The notes beneath the pieces were generated by a model. The model was not told the DNA's origin and searched no databases. It saw only the letters and a list, made by a program, of their open reading frames with translations. 64,000 bases of DNA from contig NZ_JACSDK010000022.1 of assembly GCF_014925385.1 (NCBI RefSeq), forward strand, positions 1 through 64,000. Reading direction: 5' to 3'. A program made the position numbers and the translations under genes. Numbering within the stretch: the stretch's first letter is position 1; the number at the start of each line of letters is the position of its first letter. Of this stretch, positions 45,136-60,312 are shown piece after piece. The DNA is from Pelagibius marinus (lineage in GTDB: Bacteria; Pseudomonadota; Alphaproteobacteria; Kiloniellales; Kiloniellaceae).

Positions 45136-45140
45136 GGAGG

Positions 45141-45250
45141 TGTCTCAACGGGGTGCCCCAGCAAGCCAGAGCGGCTTAGGGCTGAGAGTTCGGCGCAGAC
45201 CGGACAACCCGATGAACCTGACCCGGGTAATGCCGGCGGAGGGATTTGAG
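45141..45250 (+). promoter_or_regulatory. TPP riboswitch (THI element)
   Basis: The conserved thi-box blocks are all present and in order: GGGGTGCC, GGCTGAGA, ACCCGATGAACCTGA, then GGGTAATGCCGGCGGAGGG. The aptamer ends about 65 bp before the thiB start, so it can control transcription termination or ribosome access when thiamine pyrophosphate binds. It covers the thiBPQ operon. Confidence 0.95.
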
Positions 45251-45316
45251 CGACAGGCCTCTACCAGACCCGCGTTTCTCAAAGCCAGCCGCCCCATAAG
45301 AGCTATGGAGCGACCG

Positions 45317-52440: not shown

Positions 52441-54144
52441 CTAGCAGCCGCCGGTGGGCTGCAGCAGGCCCCAGCCGAAGGTACTGTCGCGCCCCGGCGT
52501 GCCGAGGTCGCGCGCGCTTTGTTGCAGGCTCTCGCGGATCGCCTGGGGTGGGGCGTCCGGCGTTTTGGAGAGCGAAAGGGCGGCCGCGGCCGAGACGAAG
52601 GGCGCGGCGAAGGAAGTGCCGCTGTTGTAGCGTCCGCCCTTGCCGCCGCGGGCGCTCCAGACGTCGACGCCCGGCGCCGCCAAGTCTACGTAGTCGCCGT
52701 GGTTCGCCTCGGAATAGGGTTGCAGGGCGGCGTCAACGGCGGTGACGGCCACCACCGGCGCATAGCCGGCGGGGTAGACAGGGGCCGCGTTGGGCCCCTC
52801 GTTGCCGGCCGCGGCGACCAGCACCATGCCGCTCTGGTGGGCGCGCTCTACGGTCAGGCGCATGACCTGGTTGCCGGGTCCCGACAGGCTTAAGTTCACC
52901 ACGCGCACACCTTGCTGGCCCAGCCAGTCGACCGAGCGGGCGATGGCGTCGGTGGTTCCGACGATGCGGTTGTCGTCCCGCAACGAGAAAATTCCCGCCG
53001 CGAAAAGGCGGGCGGCGGGCAGGAGTCCGCTGGAGCTCGTGCCGGGCGCGCCGACGATGATGGCGGCTACGGCGGTGCCATGGTCGGGCGGCGCCGGCGG
53101 TACGCCGCCGGCGATGAAACTTCGCACCGTGACCTGGCGGTCGGCCAAGGCCTCGTGGCCGATGTCGACGGCGGTGTCGATCAGTCCGACATAGACGGAG
53201 GTCTCGCAGGCGTGCTTCTCGTCGGGCCAGCCGATCAGCGCCTTGGCGTAGTGTCGCGGCGCGGCGCCGGTCTGCGATGCGGCATCAGGCTCGTAGAGCG
53301 TATTGGCGTCAAACAGGGTGGCCGGGAAAGTCTGACGCAGGCTATCGAGCGCCGCCGGCACGTCCTGGCCGCCGGGCACGCCGAGGCGCAGCAGGGCGAA
53401 ACCCAGCGCCGGGAGCTCCTGCAGCGAGCGTACCGCGTAGCCGAGATTGGCGAGCTGCTGAGCCAGGGCCGTGGCATCGGCGATCGAGGCGGTGATGGCC
53501 AGCACCTCGTCGGGCACGATATCGGGATTGGTCGCCGCGGGCTGATTGGCCGGCGGCAGGGGCGTGCCGGGCTGTGGCTGCGCGCCTTGCGGCGGGGTGG
53601 TCGAGCTTCCCGCCGGGCGGCGGGGCTCGGGTTCCCGCCCTAGCGGATCGCGGCCCTTGCCGCGGTCGGCGCCGGGGTCGACCTGCGCCGAGTTGTTCTT
53701 GTCGATGCCGGGGGTGTCCGCCTGCTCGCAGATCTGCACCGGGCGGCCCTGGCCGGACAGCCAGTTTCCGGTGCGGGCTTCCTGAATGCCCAGGACGTAC
53801 CACTTGCCGCGTTCCAGCTTCTTGCTCTTGGGCAGCGTGGCGCGGATCACCCTGTTGTTCCAGGAGGAGACCGGCAGGGCGATGCTGATGTTCGGATCGC
53901 GGATCACCAGCAGGCGCCCGGCGGCGCGGCCGAGGTGGCGGCCGCGCACCTTCACGCGGTCGCCGAATTCCAGGCAGCCTGTATGTCCGATCCCCATGAT
54001 GACCGGCTGCTGGGCTGCGCTGGTGGAGCTCTGCGCCCTTGCGGTGTTCTGGGCAGGCAGCACCGCCGCCAGCGCCGCGACCAGAAGGCCGCCGAGCAGG
54101 CCACCGCGAAGGCGGGACAGCCGGTCTGCGCGCGCGGCGGCCAT
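52441..54144 (-). CDS. Secreted subtilisin-family (S8) serine protease with N-terminal adhesion-like domain
   Basis: A 567-residue exported protease. Signal peptide about 1-37; an N-terminal beta-rich region about 45-140 (GDRVKVRGRHLGR, IPT/Ig-like); a Pro/Gly/Gln-rich linker (150-205); a propeptide-like domain (about 212-285); and the S8 catalytic domain (about 315-560). The triad is D323 (GLIDTAVD), H355 (PDHGTAVA), S511 (SGTSFAAPFV), with oxyanion N448 (AAAGNEGPN). Cleavage between 285 and 315 would free the enzyme. It starts 5 bp after the anti-sigma gene, so one transcript encodes both. I infer it acts in the periplasm or at the cell surface. Confidence 0.92.
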   Translation of the reverse strand: MAAARADRLSRLRGGLLGGLLVAALAAVLPAQNTARAQSSTSAAQQPVIMGIGHTGCLEFGDRVKVRGRHLGRAAGRLLVIRDPNISIALPVSSWNNRVIRATLPKSKKLERGKWYVLGIQEARTGNWLSGQGRPVQICEQADTPGIDKNNSAQVDPGADRGKGRDPLGREPEPRRPAGSSTTPPQGAQPQPGTPLPPANQPAATNPDIVPDEVLAITASIADATALAQQLANLGYAVRSLQELPALGFALLRLGVPGGQDVPAALDSLRQTFPATLFDANTLYEPDAASQTGAAPRHYAKALIGWPDEKHACETSVYVGLIDTAVDIGHEALADRQVTVRSFIAGGVPPAPPDHGTAVAAIIVGAPGTSSSGLLPAARLFAAGIFSLRDDNRIVGTTDAIARSVDWLGQQGVRVVNLSLSGPGNQVMRLTVERAHQSGMVLVAAAGNEGPNAAPVYPAGYAPVVAVTAVDAALQPYSEANHGDYVDLAAPGVDVWSARGGKGGRYNSGTSFAAPFVSAAAALSLSKTPDAPPQAIRESLQQSARDLGTPGRDSTFGWGLLQPTGGC

Positions 54145-54149
54145 GGCAG

Positions 54150-54782
54150 TCAGTACCTGTCGGCGAAGGTGACGACCGTGTCGTTGGCCCGCAGGGCGGC
54201 GAGGGCTTCCTCAACCGTGGTGGCGTTGGGGTCGACCAGGCGCAGGTTGTAGATGCCCAGCGCCGTCGGGCCGTCGGCGATGGAGGCGCCGGCCGACTGC
54301 AGCACTTCGCGGATGTCCTGCTCGGTGGCGTCGGGCGCGAAGGTCACCTGCATCACCGCAGGGGCCTTGCGGGCGATGGTTACGTCGCCACCCGTGGGGA
54401 TCATGCCGGTGTTCATGCCGACCATGACGCCGGCCTGGACCACGATCGCCAGGCAGGCGGCGACGGCCAGGGGGCGCCAGAAACTGGCGACGGTCAGGAC
54501 CTTGCCGGTCATCCTGTCGGCGCTGCCCTTCTGCTGTTCGGCATCCTGCTTGATCTCGCGCTTCAGGCGCTGCAGGCCCAGCTCGCCGGGGCTGTTCTCG
54601 AAGGCCTGCTCCTTGACCTGCTGGCGCAGCTGGCGCAGCAGCTCCACCTCGTCGCGCGCGTGGGCGCTTTCTTCCAGGTAGGCCTCGACCGCCTGGCGCT
54701 CTCCGGCCTCCAAGGTGCCGTTGACGTACCAGGGCAGTAGCAGGTCCAGGTTTTCGTCTCTTTTTCCGTTGTCAGCCATCAT
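54150..54782 (-). CDS. Membrane anti-sigma factor with propeptide-like periplasmic domain
   Basis: A 210-residue single-pass protein. Cytoplasmic part 1-95 has the anti-sigma pattern LLLPWYVNGTLEAGERQAVEAYLE but lacks the zinc ligands (no HxxxCxxC). The membrane segment is 101-123. The periplasmic part (124-210) aligns collinearly with the propeptide region of the downstream protease: DATEQDI...G, then ALGIYNLRL and VEEALAALR match DATALAQ...G, ALGFALLRL and VPAALDSLR. It would bind and silence the ECF sigma factor whose gene overlaps by 4 bp (ATGA). The start at 54782 is fixed by that overlap; an ATG at 54779 is equally possible. Confidence 0.88.
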   Translation of the reverse strand: MMADNGKRDENLDLLLPWYVNGTLEAGERQAVEAYLEESAHARDEVELLRQLRQQVKEQAFENSPGELGLQRLKREIKQDAEQQKGSADRMTGKVLTVASFWRPLAVAACLAIVVQAGVMVGMNTGMIPTGGDVTIARKAPAVMQVTFAPDATEQDIREVLQSAGASIADGPTALGIYNLRLVDPNATTVEEALAALRANDTVVTFADRY

Positions 54783-55333
54783 GACAATCCCATCTCTTTG
54801 AGCCCCGCAAGGCACTTCATCAGTGCCTTTTTCGCGTGAAACATCCTCGTCTTCACCGTGCCCTCGGGGCAGCCGACGATGTCGGCGATCTGCCCGTAGG
54901 GGAGGTCTTCGAAGAAAGCCAGATGGACCACGCTGCGGTGCGCCTCTGAGAGTTGATCAACACAGTGCCGCACCTGTTCCGCATCCTGGGCCGCTGAGAG
55001 CGTTTCTGCTGCGTTGGGAGATTCGTCCTCTGCAATCTCCGGATCCAGCTCCACGCTCTCTCCTGGTTTACGCCGCCGGATCCGGTCGATCGCCTTGTGG
55101 TGAGCGATGCCTAGAACCCAGGTGCTCACCGAGGATCGGCCTTCAAAGCGGCTGGCGCTGCGCCAGACTTCGAACATGACCTCGTTGAGTACGTCGGAGG
55201 CATCGAAGGAATCGTTCAATTTGGAACGAATAAAACGGAAAACGCGTCCCTCGTAGAGGCGATAAAACTCGTCCATCGCCGACTCGTCGCCGTTCGCCAT
55301 TCGGCTCAGCAGCTCTCGATCGTCTTCTGTCAA
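54779..55333 (-). CDS. ECF-family RNA polymerase sigma factor
   Basis: A 184-residue extracytoplasmic-function sigma factor. Region 2 (about 10-80) has FYRLYEGRVFRFIRSKL and DVLNEVMFEVWRSASRFEG. A short acidic linker (about 95-115, PEIAEDESPNAAET) separates it from region 4 (about 125-175) with LSEAHRSVVHLAFFEDLPYGQIA and EGTVKTRMFHAKKAL. No C-terminal sensor domain. Translationally coupled to its anti-sigma factor. It probably controls this array and perhaps other genes; a candidate target promoter lies at 56704-56729. Confidence 0.94.
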   Translation of the reverse strand: MTEDDRELLSRMANGDESAMDEFYRLYEGRVFRFIRSKLNDSFDASDVLNEVMFEVWRSASRFEGRSSVSTWVLGIAHHKAIDRIRRRKPGESVELDPEIAEDESPNAAETLSAAQDAEQVRHCVDQLSEAHRSVVHLAFFEDLPYGQIADIVGCPEGTVKTRMFHAKKALMKCLAGLKEMGLS

Positions 55334-55341
55334 GAGTAGCC

Positions 55342-55365
55342 CCTGTGGCTGGCGGCGGCCACAGG
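55342..55365 (-). repeat. Hairpin between secreted-protein gene and sigma-factor gene
   Basis: A perfect 8-bp inverted repeat (CCTGTGGC/GCCACAGG) with an 8-base loop, 9 bp upstream of the ECF start on the minus strand and 22 bp past the previous stop. It covers the region where the ribosome would bind, so it may lower translation of the sigma factor or mark a processing point. No U-run follows. Confidence 0.4.
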
Positions 55366-55387
55366 CCCGGGACGGGCCTCAGGACGC

Positions 55388-56602
55388 CTAGGGTTTATGG
55401 ATCTCCCTCGCGGGACTGGTCCCAATAATAGCGCCATTAGCATCAATTGCGGTGACCATCCAGAGGTAGCGCTTACCGTCGGCCAGCTGGGCCAGGGTAA
55501 AGGCCTCCAGACTCGCAGAAGTGCGTCCTCCGGGCACGAAGATTCCGGCCGCGGCGGGTTCACCCGCGGGCACCGTCTTGGCGGTCATCTGCTCGGCCGT
55601 TGCCTGGGTGTCACGGGCCGGGTCCAGCGGCTCCGCCGGGCCGCTGGGCACGGCAAAGAAGGAAAGCTGGTAGGCATCGGCGCCGTCCAGGGCGTTCCAG
55701 GAAAAGAGGGTCTCGGCCGTCAGCGGTGTCCCGGGGCGCGGCCCGGTCAACAGGATCTCCCGCAGTGCGGAGAGGGGCGCGGGCCGCGACTTCGGCGTCA
55801 CGTAGTACTGCAGCGTCGGCGCGTCGAAGGCCAGGCCGGGCTCGATCATCCTGAGGCGCACCAGGTGGGTGCCTTCCGCACCGGTCGGCAGCGGCGGGCT
55901 GGTCAGCACCGCGCGCCCGCCGGCGCCGACGCCCTGGCGCACCAGGGCGAGGGGATGGAACATCGGGGCGCCGGCCGTGGAAGTGGCGGAGGCCACCTCC
56001 CACTGCGCCTGCAGCAGGCCGACGCCGCTGGTGTTGATTTCGGCGACGACGCGCAGTTCGCTGTCTTTCGGCAGCACACGGCTGCGCGTCTTGTCGTCGA
56101 ACGTCAGCTCCAGGCGCTGCACCGAAAGGGCGACGGAGCCTTCGCCGGTCGGGGTCACCTCGAACTCACCGTTTTCGGTGGAGTTGTCGGCGGTGTCCGT
56201 GAAAACGCGGCGCAGGGTCAGCGAGGCGCCTTCCTTGACGGCGCGGTAAACCATTGCCTGGGGGATCATGACCACCTCGCGGAGGCGCAAGATTTCCGAG
56301 TACACCTCGCCCTTGGTGGTCTGGGACACGCTGCGGGGCAGGTTGCCCGCGGAAATGCCGTCGATGAACACCTGAACCGCCGAAGACGAAACGGTGCCCG
56401 GATTGGGCGTGTCGGGGGAAATCCGCTCGACGTTCCAGTTCACGGCGACCGTAGCCGGTCCGACGCTCGCAATCCGCGCCTTGGCGGGCGAGGGGGTGAC
56501 GTCGTTGATATAGGCTTCTGCCTGCGGCAGCGCGATGGTCATGGTGGCCAGTGCAGCGGCCAGCACGGCGGGGAGTCGGAGGTTTCGGGCGCCCATGGTC
56601 AT
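55388..56602 (-). CDS. Secreted Ig/Fn3-like protein, paralogue A
   Basis: A 404-residue exported protein: signal peptide (cleavage near PQAEAY) and a mature beta-rich part. It shares with the neighbouring 407-residue gene the beginning ARIASVGPATVAVNW, the centre LTFDDKTRSRVLPKDSEL and LNTSGVGL-like repeat, the LQYYVTPKS segment, an Fn3-like FSWNALDGADAYQLSF, and the C-terminal IIGTSPAREIHKP. No named family is recognised. Probably periplasmic or surface-exposed; it lies between the barrel gene and the sigma factor on the same strand. No catalytic motif is seen. Confidence 0.8.
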   Translation of the reverse strand: MTMGARNLRLPAVLAAALATMTIALPQAEAYINDVTPSPAKARIASVGPATVAVNWNVERISPDTPNPGTVSSSAVQVFIDGISAGNLPRSVSQTTKGEVYSEILRLREVVMIPQAMVYRAVKEGASLTLRRVFTDTADNSTENGEFEVTPTGEGSVALSVQRLELTFDDKTRSRVLPKDSELRVVAEINTSGVGLLQAQWEVASATSTAGAPMFHPLALVRQGVGAGGRAVLTSPPLPTGAEGTHLVRLRMIEPGLAFDAPTLQYYVTPKSRPAPLSALREILLTGPRPGTPLTAETLFSWNALDGADAYQLSFFAVPSGPAEPLDPARDTQATAEQMTAKTVPAGEPAAAGIFVPGGRTSASLEAFTLAQLADGKRYLWMVTAIDANGAIIGTSPAREIHKP

Positions 56603-56703
56603 ATTCCTTGGCTAACGGTTGTCCTTGCTCTTGAAAGCTCTCGTGCAAGGGCAACGGATCGGCTGCCGGGCAGGCTCCCGCCGCTGCTCTTGCTCCCCGT
56701 TTG

Positions 56704-56729
56704 TCGTTGTGACCAGGGGGGAGGTTCAA
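56704..56729 (-). promoter_or_regulatory. Candidate ECF-type promoter before paralogue A
   Basis: Minus strand TGAACC (56724-56729) and CGAC (56704-56707) are 16 bp apart, the usual geometry of ECF sigma promoters (GAAC-type -35). It lies in the 143-bp gap between the two paralogues, about 100 bp before the start at 56602. Pattern only; the specificity of this sigma factor is unknown. Confidence 0.3.
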
Positions 56730-56745
56730 TGAGCGGCGGGCGGCC

Positions 56746-57969
56746 TCAAGGTTTGTAAATCTCCCGTGCCGGGCTCCTGCCGATGACCGCGCCTTCCTTG
56801 TCCAGCGCCTTGACCGACCATTCATAGCGGCGGTCGCCGGGCAGGTGCTCCAGGGTGAAATCCTGCAAACGGACCTCGGTCACCGCGGCCGGGACCACGA
56901 TGCCGGTCAGAGGCGTGAGGCCTCGGACACTCTCGACGTTTGGCGCGCGGTCCAGCGGCACGTCGGTCACCACCTCGTTGGTCGCCACATTGTCCCCCGG
57001 GCCGGGCGGCGCGCCGAAAATCTCCAGCTTGTAGAGATGGGCGCCGGGCAGCGCCTGCCAGGAAAAGCGCGTGGTGAGCGTCAGCGGCGTGCCGAGGCTG
57101 GGCGAGGTGACCAGCATGGGCTGGGGATCCCGCCGCTGCGGCAGCGGGCTCTCCGGCGTCACGTAATACTGGAGCTGCGGCTCGTCGAAGAGGACTTCCG
57201 GGTCGTCCAGCCTCAACCTCACCAGGTTATTGCCCTCGAAGCGGGTGGGCAGCGGCGGGCTGGTGATGGTTACCGGGCGGCCGCCCGCCACGGGCCGGCG
57301 CACCAGGGCCAAGGTCCGGAATACCGGCGTCCCGGCCGTCGTCGCCGCCGTGGCGATCTCCCATTGACCCCGGATCAGGCCGTTCCCCGAGGTGTTGAGG
57401 CGGGCGACGGCGCGCAGGCGCCGGCCCTTGGGGAGCACTTTGAAGCGGGAGCCGTCGTCGAAGCGCAGCTCCATGCGACTGACGTTGAAGGGCGCCGAAC
57501 CGGGACCGGAGGGCGTCAGCAGGGTGGTGCCGGACAGGCTGGAAGGAGGTGTGGTAGGGAGGCTGTCGGTGAAGGTTCGCTGATAGACGATCGGCACGCC
57601 GGACTTGATGGCGCGGAAAGCCACGGCCTGCGGCACGGTAAAGGTTTCGGTGAATATCAGGGACTCCGTGGTGGCCGGCGGTCCGGGTGCAAAGCGTGAA
57701 AGCGGGCGTTGGTTGGTCGCCAGGACGGTGCCATTGACGATCAAGGTCCCGCTCGGCGAGCTGATGGTCCCGGGATTGGAGGGCGCCGAGCCCCCCAAAC
57801 GGAGCACCTGCCAGGTGACGGTCACCGTGCTCGGACCGACACTGGAAACCGGGATACGGGCCTGGGTCGTGTCCACGCTCAAGATACCGGCGAAGGCGCC
57901 AGGGGCGAGCAGCAGCGCGCTTGCCGTGACCAGGAAAACGAGAGCGAGAGGGAGGAAGCGAAGTTTCAT
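56746..57969 (-). CDS. Secreted Ig/Fn3-like protein, paralogue B
   Basis: A 407-residue exported protein, paralogue of the preceding entry. The signal peptide ends near GAFAG. It shares ARIPVSSVGPSTVTVTWQV, MELRFDDGSRFKVLPKG, LNTSGNGLIRGQWE, LQYYVTPES, FSWQALPGAHLYKLEIF and the end VIGRSPAREIYKP with paralogue A, so the two arose by tandem duplication and have since diverged. The gene starts 10 bp after the barrel gene's stop. Function unknown. Two copies next to a barrel suggest they decorate or pass through it, an inference. Confidence 0.8.
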   Translation of the reverse strand: MKLRFLPLALVFLVTASALLLAPGAFAGILSVDTTQARIPVSSVGPSTVTVTWQVLRLGGSAPSNPGTISSPSGTLIVNGTVLATNQRPLSRFAPGPPATTESLIFTETFTVPQAVAFRAIKSGVPIVYQRTFTDSLPTTPPSSLSGTTLLTPSGPGSAPFNVSRMELRFDDGSRFKVLPKGRRLRAVARLNTSGNGLIRGQWEIATAATTAGTPVFRTLALVRRPVAGGRPVTITSPPLPTRFEGNNLVRLRLDDPEVLFDEPQLQYYVTPESPLPQRRDPQPMLVTSPSLGTPLTLTTRFSWQALPGAHLYKLEIFGAPPGPGDNVATNEVVTDVPLDRAPNVESVRGLTPLTGIVVPAAVTEVRLQDFTLEHLPGDRRYEWSVKALDKEGAVIGRSPAREIYKP

Positions 57970-57979
57970 CGGGACGCTC

Positions 57980-60076
57980 TCAATAGGCCACGGGCAATGA
58001 CAGACGGAGGGAGGTAAACGCTTGATATTGCAAGTCGTCTTCGGGGTTGTCGAAATCGTCGTTGGTGTCCTGGATGTGGCCGGTAACCGCCACGGCGATG
58101 CCGAGCCTGTTTACATCGGCTTGGCGCAGTGTCCACACCACCTCGCCGTTCAAGCTGTTGGTATCAGGTGTGTCGCCGTCGCCCATCCGGTGGTTCAGAG
58201 AGTAATACAGCGTAGCGTCCAGCGTTTCCGGAATCACTGTGACATTGGCGCCGAGGTTCAGCAGCAGGCTCTGATTGTCGTCGCCGGTGTCGAGGTCCTC
58301 GAAGTTGTCCCACTGGACGCTGGGCTGTAGCGTCAGCCAGTCGTCGACCAGGAAGTAGGCGCTGAGGCCGGTGCTGTTGTTGCGCGTGTCGCTGCTCAGG
58401 TCGACATGGTCCTCGAAGGAATAGATCGTGTGCGAGAGGTTCCAGTTCCAGGTTTCGTAGTTGGCGCCGGTGCTCAAGGTGAGAGAGCGTGTCGAATTGT
58501 TGGCGTCGTCGTTGGGAGAGTCCTGCGACTTGTCGATCCGGTCGATCTCGTACCAAGAGGCCGAAATGCCGAAGAAGGGCTGGCCGTACCACGGCAGGGA
58601 GCCGTCTTCCAGCGGCTCGATGTAGGGTGTGTAGTTGCCGTTGAAGTAGATGTTGATATTGCGGTCGGTCGGCAGGTAGTCCAGGTCATCGACGTTGTTG
58701 ACCTGGTGGTCGACGCGCAACTGCGCGGAGAACTCGTCCCAGAGGAAATCCGTGTAGACCGACGTCGTCTCGCGGTCGGGTTCCAGGTAGGGGTTGGCCA
58801 GGCTGCTGAAGAAGGTATCAACCTGGTCGCGCTGCACGCCGATGGTCCAGGTGAAGACGCTGCCGTCCAGGGTGGCGCCGCGCAGCGGCTCGAGTGAGGC
58901 CAGCACGGAGTAAGCGTCGGCGGTTTCGGCATCGAAGCCCTGGTCCTTGCCGTCGAAATCGAAGTTGGTCTGTGCATACTCGCCGCGCAGGCGCAGGGCC
59001 TCGTCGAACCACAACGTGTCCGCGGCGATCGACCAGCCGTCGCCTTCGTTGACCACCTCGTCGCTACCGATGCCGAAGCCGCCGTCGCCGCCTTCGCCGG
59101 TATAGAAAGTGCCGGTCAGGACAATGTTGTCCTTCAGGGCTTCGATCGGACGCACCGAGACGGAGGCGCCTTCGACCCTTTCCTCGTTGCGGCTGATGCC
59201 GAGCTCGTGGCGGGTGCCTACCAGGGCTTCGGTGCTCTGCACGAAGCCGGTGACGGAAAGCCGGTCGTCGGCAAGGCCGGTCCGCAGGGAGACGCCGCGG
59301 CGATAGAATCCGGACATGATCAGGTTGTCGATGCCGGTGTCGTGGTCACCGGCGGTGAAGCCGGCGAAGAAGCTGTCCTGCTCGTAGTCGCCGTCGATCC
59401 GGTATTCACTGAAATCGAAGTTGCGCCCGTCGATGCCCAGGTCGATCTGGCTGTTGTAGAGGTAGCTGCCTTGGGCCGAGATGCGCCAGTGCTCGTCACC
59501 GGCTGAGGCCTCGGCGGTGCCGGCGCTCTCTCCCGTCACGTGCTGAGGCGGGGTATCGATGCCGTTTTCGGCAAAGCGGGTATTCACCTCGCCGGCCAGG
59601 TTGGCGTTCACTGACAGGTCCCGGATCAGCTCTGAATGACGGACGTCCAGGCTCCAGTAGCCGCGCTCAAGGATCGAACCGTCGCCGCCGCGCTCTACGA
59701 GGCGCAGGCTGTGGCTGCCGGTTGAAAGCGTCTCCGGTGGCGTAACGACCAGGCGTGCGTTCTCAACCAGAACGAAGGCGGTGACGTCGATGTCGTCCAG
59801 CTCGACCGCGAGGTTCTGGTAGATTGCCGGGTCAAGGTCGGCCGGCAGCAGAATGACGATGGGATCGCTGCGCCCCCGGCTCTCGGAGGGAGTCGCTTCC
59901 AGCTCCGGCACCCAGTCGCCTTGCGCCAGGGCCGGCGGGGCCCCGCAAAGGGCCAAAGCCAGAAAAATCGTCGCCAGCCCGGTGGTGGAACGAGTGGAAT
60001 AACCCCTGGCCGCTTTGCGGCCAGGTAGCACAAAAGAATGCCTGATGCCCTGCGCACCACGCCTACATTCCCGCAT
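57980..60076 (-). CDS. Predicted outer-membrane beta-barrel protein
   Basis: A 698-residue protein with a long signal region (about 1-51, cleavage near ALAQG) and an N-terminal beta domain (about 55-165, IVILLPADLDPAIYQNL, SHSLRLVERGGDGS). From about 185 to the end run alternating hydrophobic strands and acidic turns (DDWLTLQPSVQWDNF, NWNLSHTIYSFEDH), and it closes with the aromatic end RLSLPVAY, as in barrels. No TonB plug, TonB box or porin family is recognised. First gene of the six-gene array. It may be an export or surface-attachment channel for the two secreted paralogues. Confidence 0.8.
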   Translation of the reverse strand: MRECRRGAQGIRHSFVLPGRKAARGYSTRSTTGLATIFLALALCGAPPALAQGDWVPELEATPSESRGRSDPIVILLPADLDPAIYQNLAVELDDIDVTAFVLVENARLVVTPPETLSTGSHSLRLVERGGDGSILERGYWSLDVRHSELIRDLSVNANLAGEVNTRFAENGIDTPPQHVTGESAGTAEASAGDEHWRISAQGSYLYNSQIDLGIDGRNFDFSEYRIDGDYEQDSFFAGFTAGDHDTGIDNLIMSGFYRRGVSLRTGLADDRLSVTGFVQSTEALVGTRHELGISRNEERVEGASVSVRPIEALKDNIVLTGTFYTGEGGDGGFGIGSDEVVNEGDGWSIAADTLWFDEALRLRGEYAQTNFDFDGKDQGFDAETADAYSVLASLEPLRGATLDGSVFTWTIGVQRDQVDTFFSSLANPYLEPDRETTSVYTDFLWDEFSAQLRVDHQVNNVDDLDYLPTDRNINIYFNGNYTPYIEPLEDGSLPWYGQPFFGISASWYEIDRIDKSQDSPNDDANNSTRSLTLSTGANYETWNWNLSHTIYSFEDHVDLSSDTRNNSTGLSAYFLVDDWLTLQPSVQWDNFEDLDTGDDNQSLLLNLGANVTVIPETLDATLYYSLNHRMGDGDTPDTNSLNGEVVWTLRQADVNRLGIAVAVTGHIQDTNDDFDNPEDDLQYQAFTSLRLSLPVAY

Positions 60077-60312
60077 TGCCCTACCTTTCGGTCCACCCCC
60101 CGGCGATCGAATTTAAGGGCGACTCTCCCACGTCACGCGCATCCTATTATCCTGAAAGTTGCCTGGAAGGAAGAGCGAGGTTGCCTCTAGTACTGAATTT
60201 CTTGCCGGCTGGGGCTTCAGGGCTACCGCTTTGGGTCGTCGAGACTATGCGCTAACCTCCAGAAACCCGGGCAATTTTGCCGATCCGGGGTCAGTGAGGG
60301 GAAAACCGCACA

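Follow-up and report, generated by a model that had tools for sequence, protein, structure and literature searches.

What logic connects the six genes that are transcribed, in the order outer-membrane barrel, secreted paralogue A, secreted paralogue B, extracytoplasmic function (ECF) sigma factor, anti-sigma factor and subtilase, from the minus strand (-) of a 64,000-nucleotide stretch of Pelagibius marinus DNA (contig NZ_JACSDK010000022.1, positions 1 to 64,000; hereafter the window) at positions 52441-60076? Of their products, only the sigma factor and the subtilase are clearly identified by Pfam. We found that the periplasmic domain of the anti-sigma factor has a confidently predicted fold resembling the prodomain of the adjacent subtilase, and we propose a molecular logic for an orphan sigma/anti-sigma/subtilase arrangement that recurs across Pseudomonadota, in which the sensor would be a copy of the enzyme's prodomain, giving the two a common recognition surface.

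A prior sequence-only reading of the window had placed the six genes on a single strand with gaps of 10, 143, 54, -1 (a one-base overlap) and 5 bp in cluster order, and both the coordinates of the open reading frames and the measured gaps agree with it. Its view that every product other than the sigma factor is exported or membrane-bound is likewise matched: the barrel, both paralogues and the subtilase each have a hydrophobic segment at the N-terminus, and the anti-sigma factor has a transmembrane (TM) stretch. The same reading recognized the sigma/anti-sigma/protease set, which is indeed present, but missed the subtilase-prodomain fold of the anti-sigma sensor. We describe the cluster as two modules, namely the trio of sigma factor, anti-sigma factor and subtilase, and the barrel with its Ig/FnIII-like secreted protein, whose gene is termed par.

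A subtilase-prodomain-like domain in the anti-sigma factor

The ECF sigma factor (54779..55333, 184 aa, with a TTG start) has sigma-70 regions 2 and 4 both above the Pfam cut-offs (Sigma70_r2, 3.1e-16; Sigma70_r4_2, 8.1e-14), and the secreted subtilase of family S8 (52441..54144, 567 aa) exceeds that for Peptidase_S8 (PF00082, 9.3e-38), with an intact triad (D323/H355/S511) and N448 as the remaining catalytic residue. Between them is encoded the anti-sigma factor P0005 (54150..54779, 209 aa), with a cytoplasmic anti-sigma domain (residues 1-63), a TM segment, a disordered linker and a periplasmic domain. The AlphaFold2 (AF2) model, run on 26 aligned sequences, predicts a helical anti-sigma domain and a TM helix at residues 101-121 (a hydrophobic stretch lies near residues 104-122), with pLDDT below 50 at residues 123-136. 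The low-confidence periplasmic linker (residues 122-139; 54363..54416), which we propose as the cleavage region, leads into the prodomain-like domain (residues 140-209, ending at the stop codon; 54153..54362, translation checked), which was delineated by AF2, VIA superposition and the Pfam family PF22148. Its predicted beta-alpha-beta-beta-alpha-beta fold at residues 143-208 has a pLDDT of 94-97, while the pTM of 0.38 for the whole protein leaves the relative placement of the domains unpredicted.

In the VIA superpositions the first-ranked structure for the anti-sigma factor was the RslA anti-sigma domain (3hug_F; Z 7.8, root-mean-square deviation (rmsd) 2.3, 56 aligned positions, residues 6-63), and the second was the prosegment of subtilisin BPN' (1spb_P; Z 7.0, rmsd 2.7, 62 aligned positions, residues 140-209 on 7-71), with pro-subtilisin E, PC1/3, POIA1, EpiP and fervidolysin in other rows. 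The highest Foldseek probabilities also belonged to prosegments (1spb_P, 0.99; 1scj_B and 3whi_B, 0.98 each). A prodomain-like fold would by itself be weak evidence, being a common one. At the level of profiles, PF22148, the fervidolysin prodomain, matches 10 of 25 anti-sigma factors at E <= 0.1 (best 3.1e-5). Furthermore, an hhalign comparison of the anti-sigma domain with the N-terminal prodomain of the adjacent subtilases (residues 211-285 in that of the window; 53290..53514) scored 24.1 (P 0.0005), as against a maximum of 13.3 in 30 column shuffles and 8.7 for the cytoplasmic half of the anti-sigma factor. On the cytoplasmic side, zf-HC2 matches 16 of the 25 anti-sigma relatives at E <= 0.1, and the HxxxCxxC zinc motif was not found in P0005. 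A sequence search of PDB with the profiles of the anti-sigma factor and the barrel yielded nothing useful.

The C-terminal end of the periplasmic domain

In the VIA superpositions the last residue of P0005 aligns with residue 71 of the prosegment in both 1spb and 3whi, and with residue 371 in 1scj, which by our reading of the numbering is equivalent to 71. According to PMC6993865, Glu69 and Asp71 of the BPN' prosegment cap the two helices on the protease surface, and these cap positions are occupied by Glu and Asn in a stand-alone malarial propeptide-like inhibitor. Among 30 barrel-linked anti-sigma rows, which include close relatives, 25 have D, E or N at position 71, and 20 have the helix-cap pair [EDQ]/[DEN] at the positions of BPN' Glu69/Asp71. 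As the pair is present in 20/30 of these rows and in 0/17 of the others, the putative docking end appears, judged from the alignment, to be a feature of the barrel-linked clade and not of the anti-sigma family as a whole. The chain stops exactly at position 71 in 20 of the 30, the copy in the window being of this type, so that the tail which would reach the active site is missing from them; a tail of at least six residues is present in 7/30.

The trio is widespread in Pseudomonadota

With the anti-sigma protein as the only query, a search of 397 genomes from the phylum gave 30 matches outside its own genome, and we inspected all 30 neighborhoods. A sigma factor was present in 29 of these loci and a directly adjacent subtilase in 27; those lacking the subtilase are L134, L142 and L184 (L and G numbers denote our locus and genome labels), and the last of these, where the anti-sigma profile has no match, was probably retrieved in error. 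Anti-sigma factors with the prodomain profile have a subtilase neighbor in 24 of 25 cases, the exception being L134, as against 0 subtilases within 1.5 kb on each side of 12 anti-sigma loci of the RskA_C control. All three plasmid matches (in Sphingobium, Sphingomonas and Methylocapsa) have an adjoining sigma factor, and at the same loci an annotated serine/S8 peptidase lies beside the anti-sigma gene or two genes upstream of the sigma factor. The trio is, as far as these neighborhoods indicate, older and more widespread across Pseudomonadota than the barrel-linked cluster.

A few of the loci have individual features. At L134 (7950-8756) a gene for a caspase-family (C14) protease lies downstream, where the subtilase would be expected. 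On the Sphingomonas plasmid a gene for a putative TorF-family porin follows the trio (L198:5816-6472), making this a second trio beside an outer-membrane channel. Two genomes that also carry the cluster have orphan anti-sigma paralogues with no sigma factor or subtilase nearby (L090 and L091, the latter without the prodomain).

The barrel module probably joined the trio once

In the order to which the source organism belongs, 24 of 61 genomes have barrel matches and 26 have anti-sigma matches. Across 84,980 species genomes scanned for the barrel we recovered 32 barrel loci, in which genes were placed by custom profiles. The order barrel-par-sigma-anti-sigma-subtilase is intact in 21/32, including those of Pelagibius, Kiloniella, Sneathiella, both Methylophaga loci and an Acidiferrobacterales bin. 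In four further loci (L148, L149, L151 and L166) anti-sigma-subtilase and barrel-par-sigma form separate units, all within ~14 kb; at L149, four genes lying between the two halves were tested, and none matched a Pfam family at E <= 0.01. A contig end interrupts five loci (L153, L158, L164, L165 and L173), and in two (L170 and L172) the barrel and par occur without the trio, while G026 and G028, which belong to the order of the source organism, carry a barrel but lack par and the trio in its vicinity. All eight Pelagibius genomes, G027 and L163 have two par copies, one of those in L163 being short.

The barrel module is retained with the trio in both Alpha- and Gammaproteobacteria, and the cluster is far beyond chance, its gene order having been preserved in both classes. 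A sigma-factor tree with 57 rows, whose details are unsure owing to several long branches, accounts for the 30 barrel-linked rows with 2 changes, as against a mean of 19.2 with shuffled labels (0/500 as low). This suggests that the barrel module probably joined the trio once, with one loss (L123), and because of the difference from the shuffled labels we take the association to be one old, stable event rather than an incidental one. The idea of one linked system in the sequence-only reading is supported by these results. That reading had also allowed that modules found apart would make the association incidental; they are in part found apart, the trio alone in most other Pseudomonadota and the barrel alone in G026 and G028, but the tree favors a stable linkage.

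The proposed mechanism and its alternatives

From the computed architecture, prodomain-like fold, gene linkage and conserved association we infer a scheme of binding, cleavage, direction of control and autoregulation. The anti-sigma factor would tether the ECF sigma factor to the inner membrane and carry, as its periplasmic domain, a copy of the subtilase prodomain; in the barrel-linked clade this mimic would mostly keep the docking sheet and the helix-cap end without the tail that blocks the active site. The mature subtilase, rid of its own prodomain, would dock on the mimic and cut the disordered juxtamembrane linker (site-1 cleavage), after which ordinary intramembrane proteolysis would release the sigma factor to transcribe the operon encoding the protease. 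The barrel and the Ig-like secreted partners would be co-regulated cargo, and a candidate for the signal that frees the protease is its engagement in maturing the barrel or these partners. PMC10580911 and PMC6993865 describe prodomains as both inhibitors and preferred substrates of their own proteases, which would suit a tethered inhibitor as well. That the subtilase docks on a tethered prodomain mimic and acts as a site-1 protease to free the sigma factor is the reading to which we lean, if only slightly. As regards its generalization, namely a widespread signaling class in which a captured prodomain serves as an anti-sigma sensor read by a secreted subtilase acting as site-1 protease, with the mimic of one clade having turned into a docking site on loss of the inhibitory tail, we consider the chances evenly balanced.

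Several observations weigh against the site-1 protease reading. The fold is the common ferredoxin-like one, and the unrelated EF-1 beta, SerB and RRMs superpose nearly as well as the prosegments (up to a VIA Z of 6.8); no Foldseek E-value is below 0.001, and the best belongs to EF-1 beta. P0005 itself scores 18.5 bits against PF22148 (E 0.0027), below the cut-off of 21, and hence has no Pfam membership, and the hhalign probability is 31%. None of the 17 non-barrel rows has the helix-cap pair, and in the copy encoded in the window these two positions are D and Y. Furthermore, a divergent subtilase lies 0.1 to 2.5 kb from three other anti-sigma factors of the order, each paired with a sigma factor but lacking the prodomain (L088, L089 and L092), and linkage to a subtilase is therefore not unique to the prodomain mimic. 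Neither a promoter common to both transcription units of the split loci nor one shared across genera was found. Separately, the C-terminal parts of the L088 and L089 anti-sigma factors, the two that were scanned, have a weak match to a 17 kDa-antigen-like domain.

The mimic might instead remain uncut, as a tethered inhibitor or occupancy sensor whose binding to the subtilase would restrain the enzyme or gauge its amount; binding itself would alter the anti-sigma factor, or the anti-sigma factor would quiet the protease at the membrane until its targets arrive, constituting a negative feedback. Prodomains are, according to PMC10580911 and PMC6993865, transient tight inhibitors whose C-terminal tail is helpful but in some not essential, the 5 bp between the anti-sigma and subtilase genes would favor matched production, and 7 of the 30 barrel-linked rows do have the longer tail. 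We nevertheless consider this unlikely, as 20/30 barrel-linked chains stop before the inhibitory tail and the disordered linker between membrane and domain suits cleavage. A somewhat less probable alternative is that the domain is a ferredoxin-like sensor of another ligand, with the subtilase a downstream effector that matures the barrel or the Ig-like proteins and the likeness to prodomains convergent. The common fold, for which a Z between 5 and 7 is nothing unusual, and the pairing of a subtilase with non-prodomain anti-sigma factors at L088, L089 and L092 speak for it; but prosegments have the top Foldseek probabilities, the matching Pfam family is itself a subtilase prodomain, and, with a subtilase neighbor in 24/25, convergence would have to pick the fold of the neighbor's own prodomain.

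At the level of the whole cluster, the trio might regulate other genes while the barrel and its Ig-like partner are expressed constitutively, the two being unrelated modules that happen to adjoin. The frequent trios without a barrel, the barrel and par without the trio at L170 and L172 and the lone barrels of G026 and G028 would fit this, but the same gene order in Alpha- and Gammaproteobacteria and the 2 tree changes against 19.2 make it highly improbable.

The barrel, its secreted partners and a candidate RNA leader

The barrel (57980..60076, 698 aa) matches no Pfam family at E <= 1 and no NCBIfam family, and our analysis gives a handle on a barrel family without a name in either. The sequence-only reading's call of a barrel is borne out by AF2, which predicts ~26 strands (residues 153-697; mean pLDDT 80.6) behind an N-terminal Ig-like beta domain (residues ~73-145). 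The top Foldseek rows are FimD/PapC ushers, MtrB and TonB-dependent receptors. The fullest VIA superposition is with MtrB (6r2q_B; Z 17.1, rmsd 5.4, 449 aligned positions), the VIA rows spanning the barrel from residue 130 onward and barely covering the Ig-like domain. We rejected a chaperone-usher identity (no Pfam usher or NCBIfam match, the Foldseek likeness being one of fold only) and likewise a two-partner secretion identity (no Pfam or NCBIfam match, again a likeness of fold only). An MtrB-type electron conduit was also rejected, with 0 CXXCH heme motifs across the six cluster proteins, which were the ones scanned, and because such motifs are absent the modeled likeness to MtrB is one of shape only.

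Secreted paralogues A (56746..57969, 407 aa, with an N-terminal hydrophobic segment) and B (55388..56602, 404 aa) are 44% identical over 399 aligned positions. Paralogue A has no Pfam match at E <= 1 and paralogue B a single chance-level row, and neither is in NCBIfam; among 24 par relatives, Ig_Rha78A_N matches 8 and fn3 matches 4. By our reading of the alignment, the Ig/FnIII-like domain would sit at the C-terminus of the paralogues. For the barrel and paralogues a role at the surface, guessed at by the sequence-only reading as well, or in export is our guess.

Over the barrel start lies a strongly conserved, probably structured leader that is confined to Pelagibius (60007..60131, minus strand). 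Across the 8 genomes of this genus it has four predicted helices, 92% of cells paired and 4 pairs with double changes, and one of these predicted helices pairs with the G-rich stretch before the barrel start codon and could hide the ribosome site. The exact pattern matches in 6 of 41 genomes, all of the same genus and all at the barrel. A known RNA family was rejected for this leader, as there is no Rfam family there and the listed matches are weak and elsewhere. Elsewhere in the window, a TPP riboswitch (45139-45262, plus strand) lies above the Rfam cut-off.

Comparison with known systems

In the PMC literature, a search that took in few subscription papers and not the tables of the large ECF reclassification, we found neither a subtilase-prodomain sensor described in any anti-sigma factor nor a reported link between anti-sigma factors and subtilases. 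The nearest published idea that we saw, in PMC8999054, is the proposed control of ECF54 sigma factors, which lack an anti-sigma factor, by subtilase or CHAT proteins. The present system is comparable to the ECF54 type in the conservation of a subtilase in the neighborhood, but unlike it has an anti-sigma factor (PMC8999054).

The predicted sensor shares its fold with the BPN' prosegment, POIA1, Plasmodium SUB1-ProM and Toxoplasma MIC5, and in most barrel-linked copies the domain stops at the Glu-x-Asp/Asn helix-cap position; unlike prodomains and stand-alone inhibitors, it is fused to a transmembrane anti-sigma factor and lacks the active-site tail in 20/30 barrel-linked rows. The barrel resembles those of MtrB/PioB and the ushers in its ~26 predicted strands and in the MtrB superposition (Z 17.1), and differs from them in having no CXXCH in the six cluster proteins, no Pfam usher match and an N-terminal Ig-like domain.

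Canonical ECF sigma/anti-sigma pairs are controlled by regulated intramembrane proteolysis, as in RseA-DegS and RsiW-PrsW. The system described here has in common with them the ECF sigma factor, a single-pass anti-sigma factor with an RslA-like domain and a proposed succession of site-1 and site-2 proteolysis, but it would differ in having a linked secreted subtilase as the proposed site-1 protease and a sensor that copies the prodomain of that subtilase. The eukaryotic site-1 protease of the SREBP pathway is itself a subtilase that makes the first cut in a membrane-tethered regulator; we know of no prodomain mimic in that pathway. A subtilase would make the first cut in both cases, acting on different substrates. 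If our proposal is true, subtilases would join the proteases that open bacterial transmembrane switches, in parallel to the eukaryotic site-1 protease.

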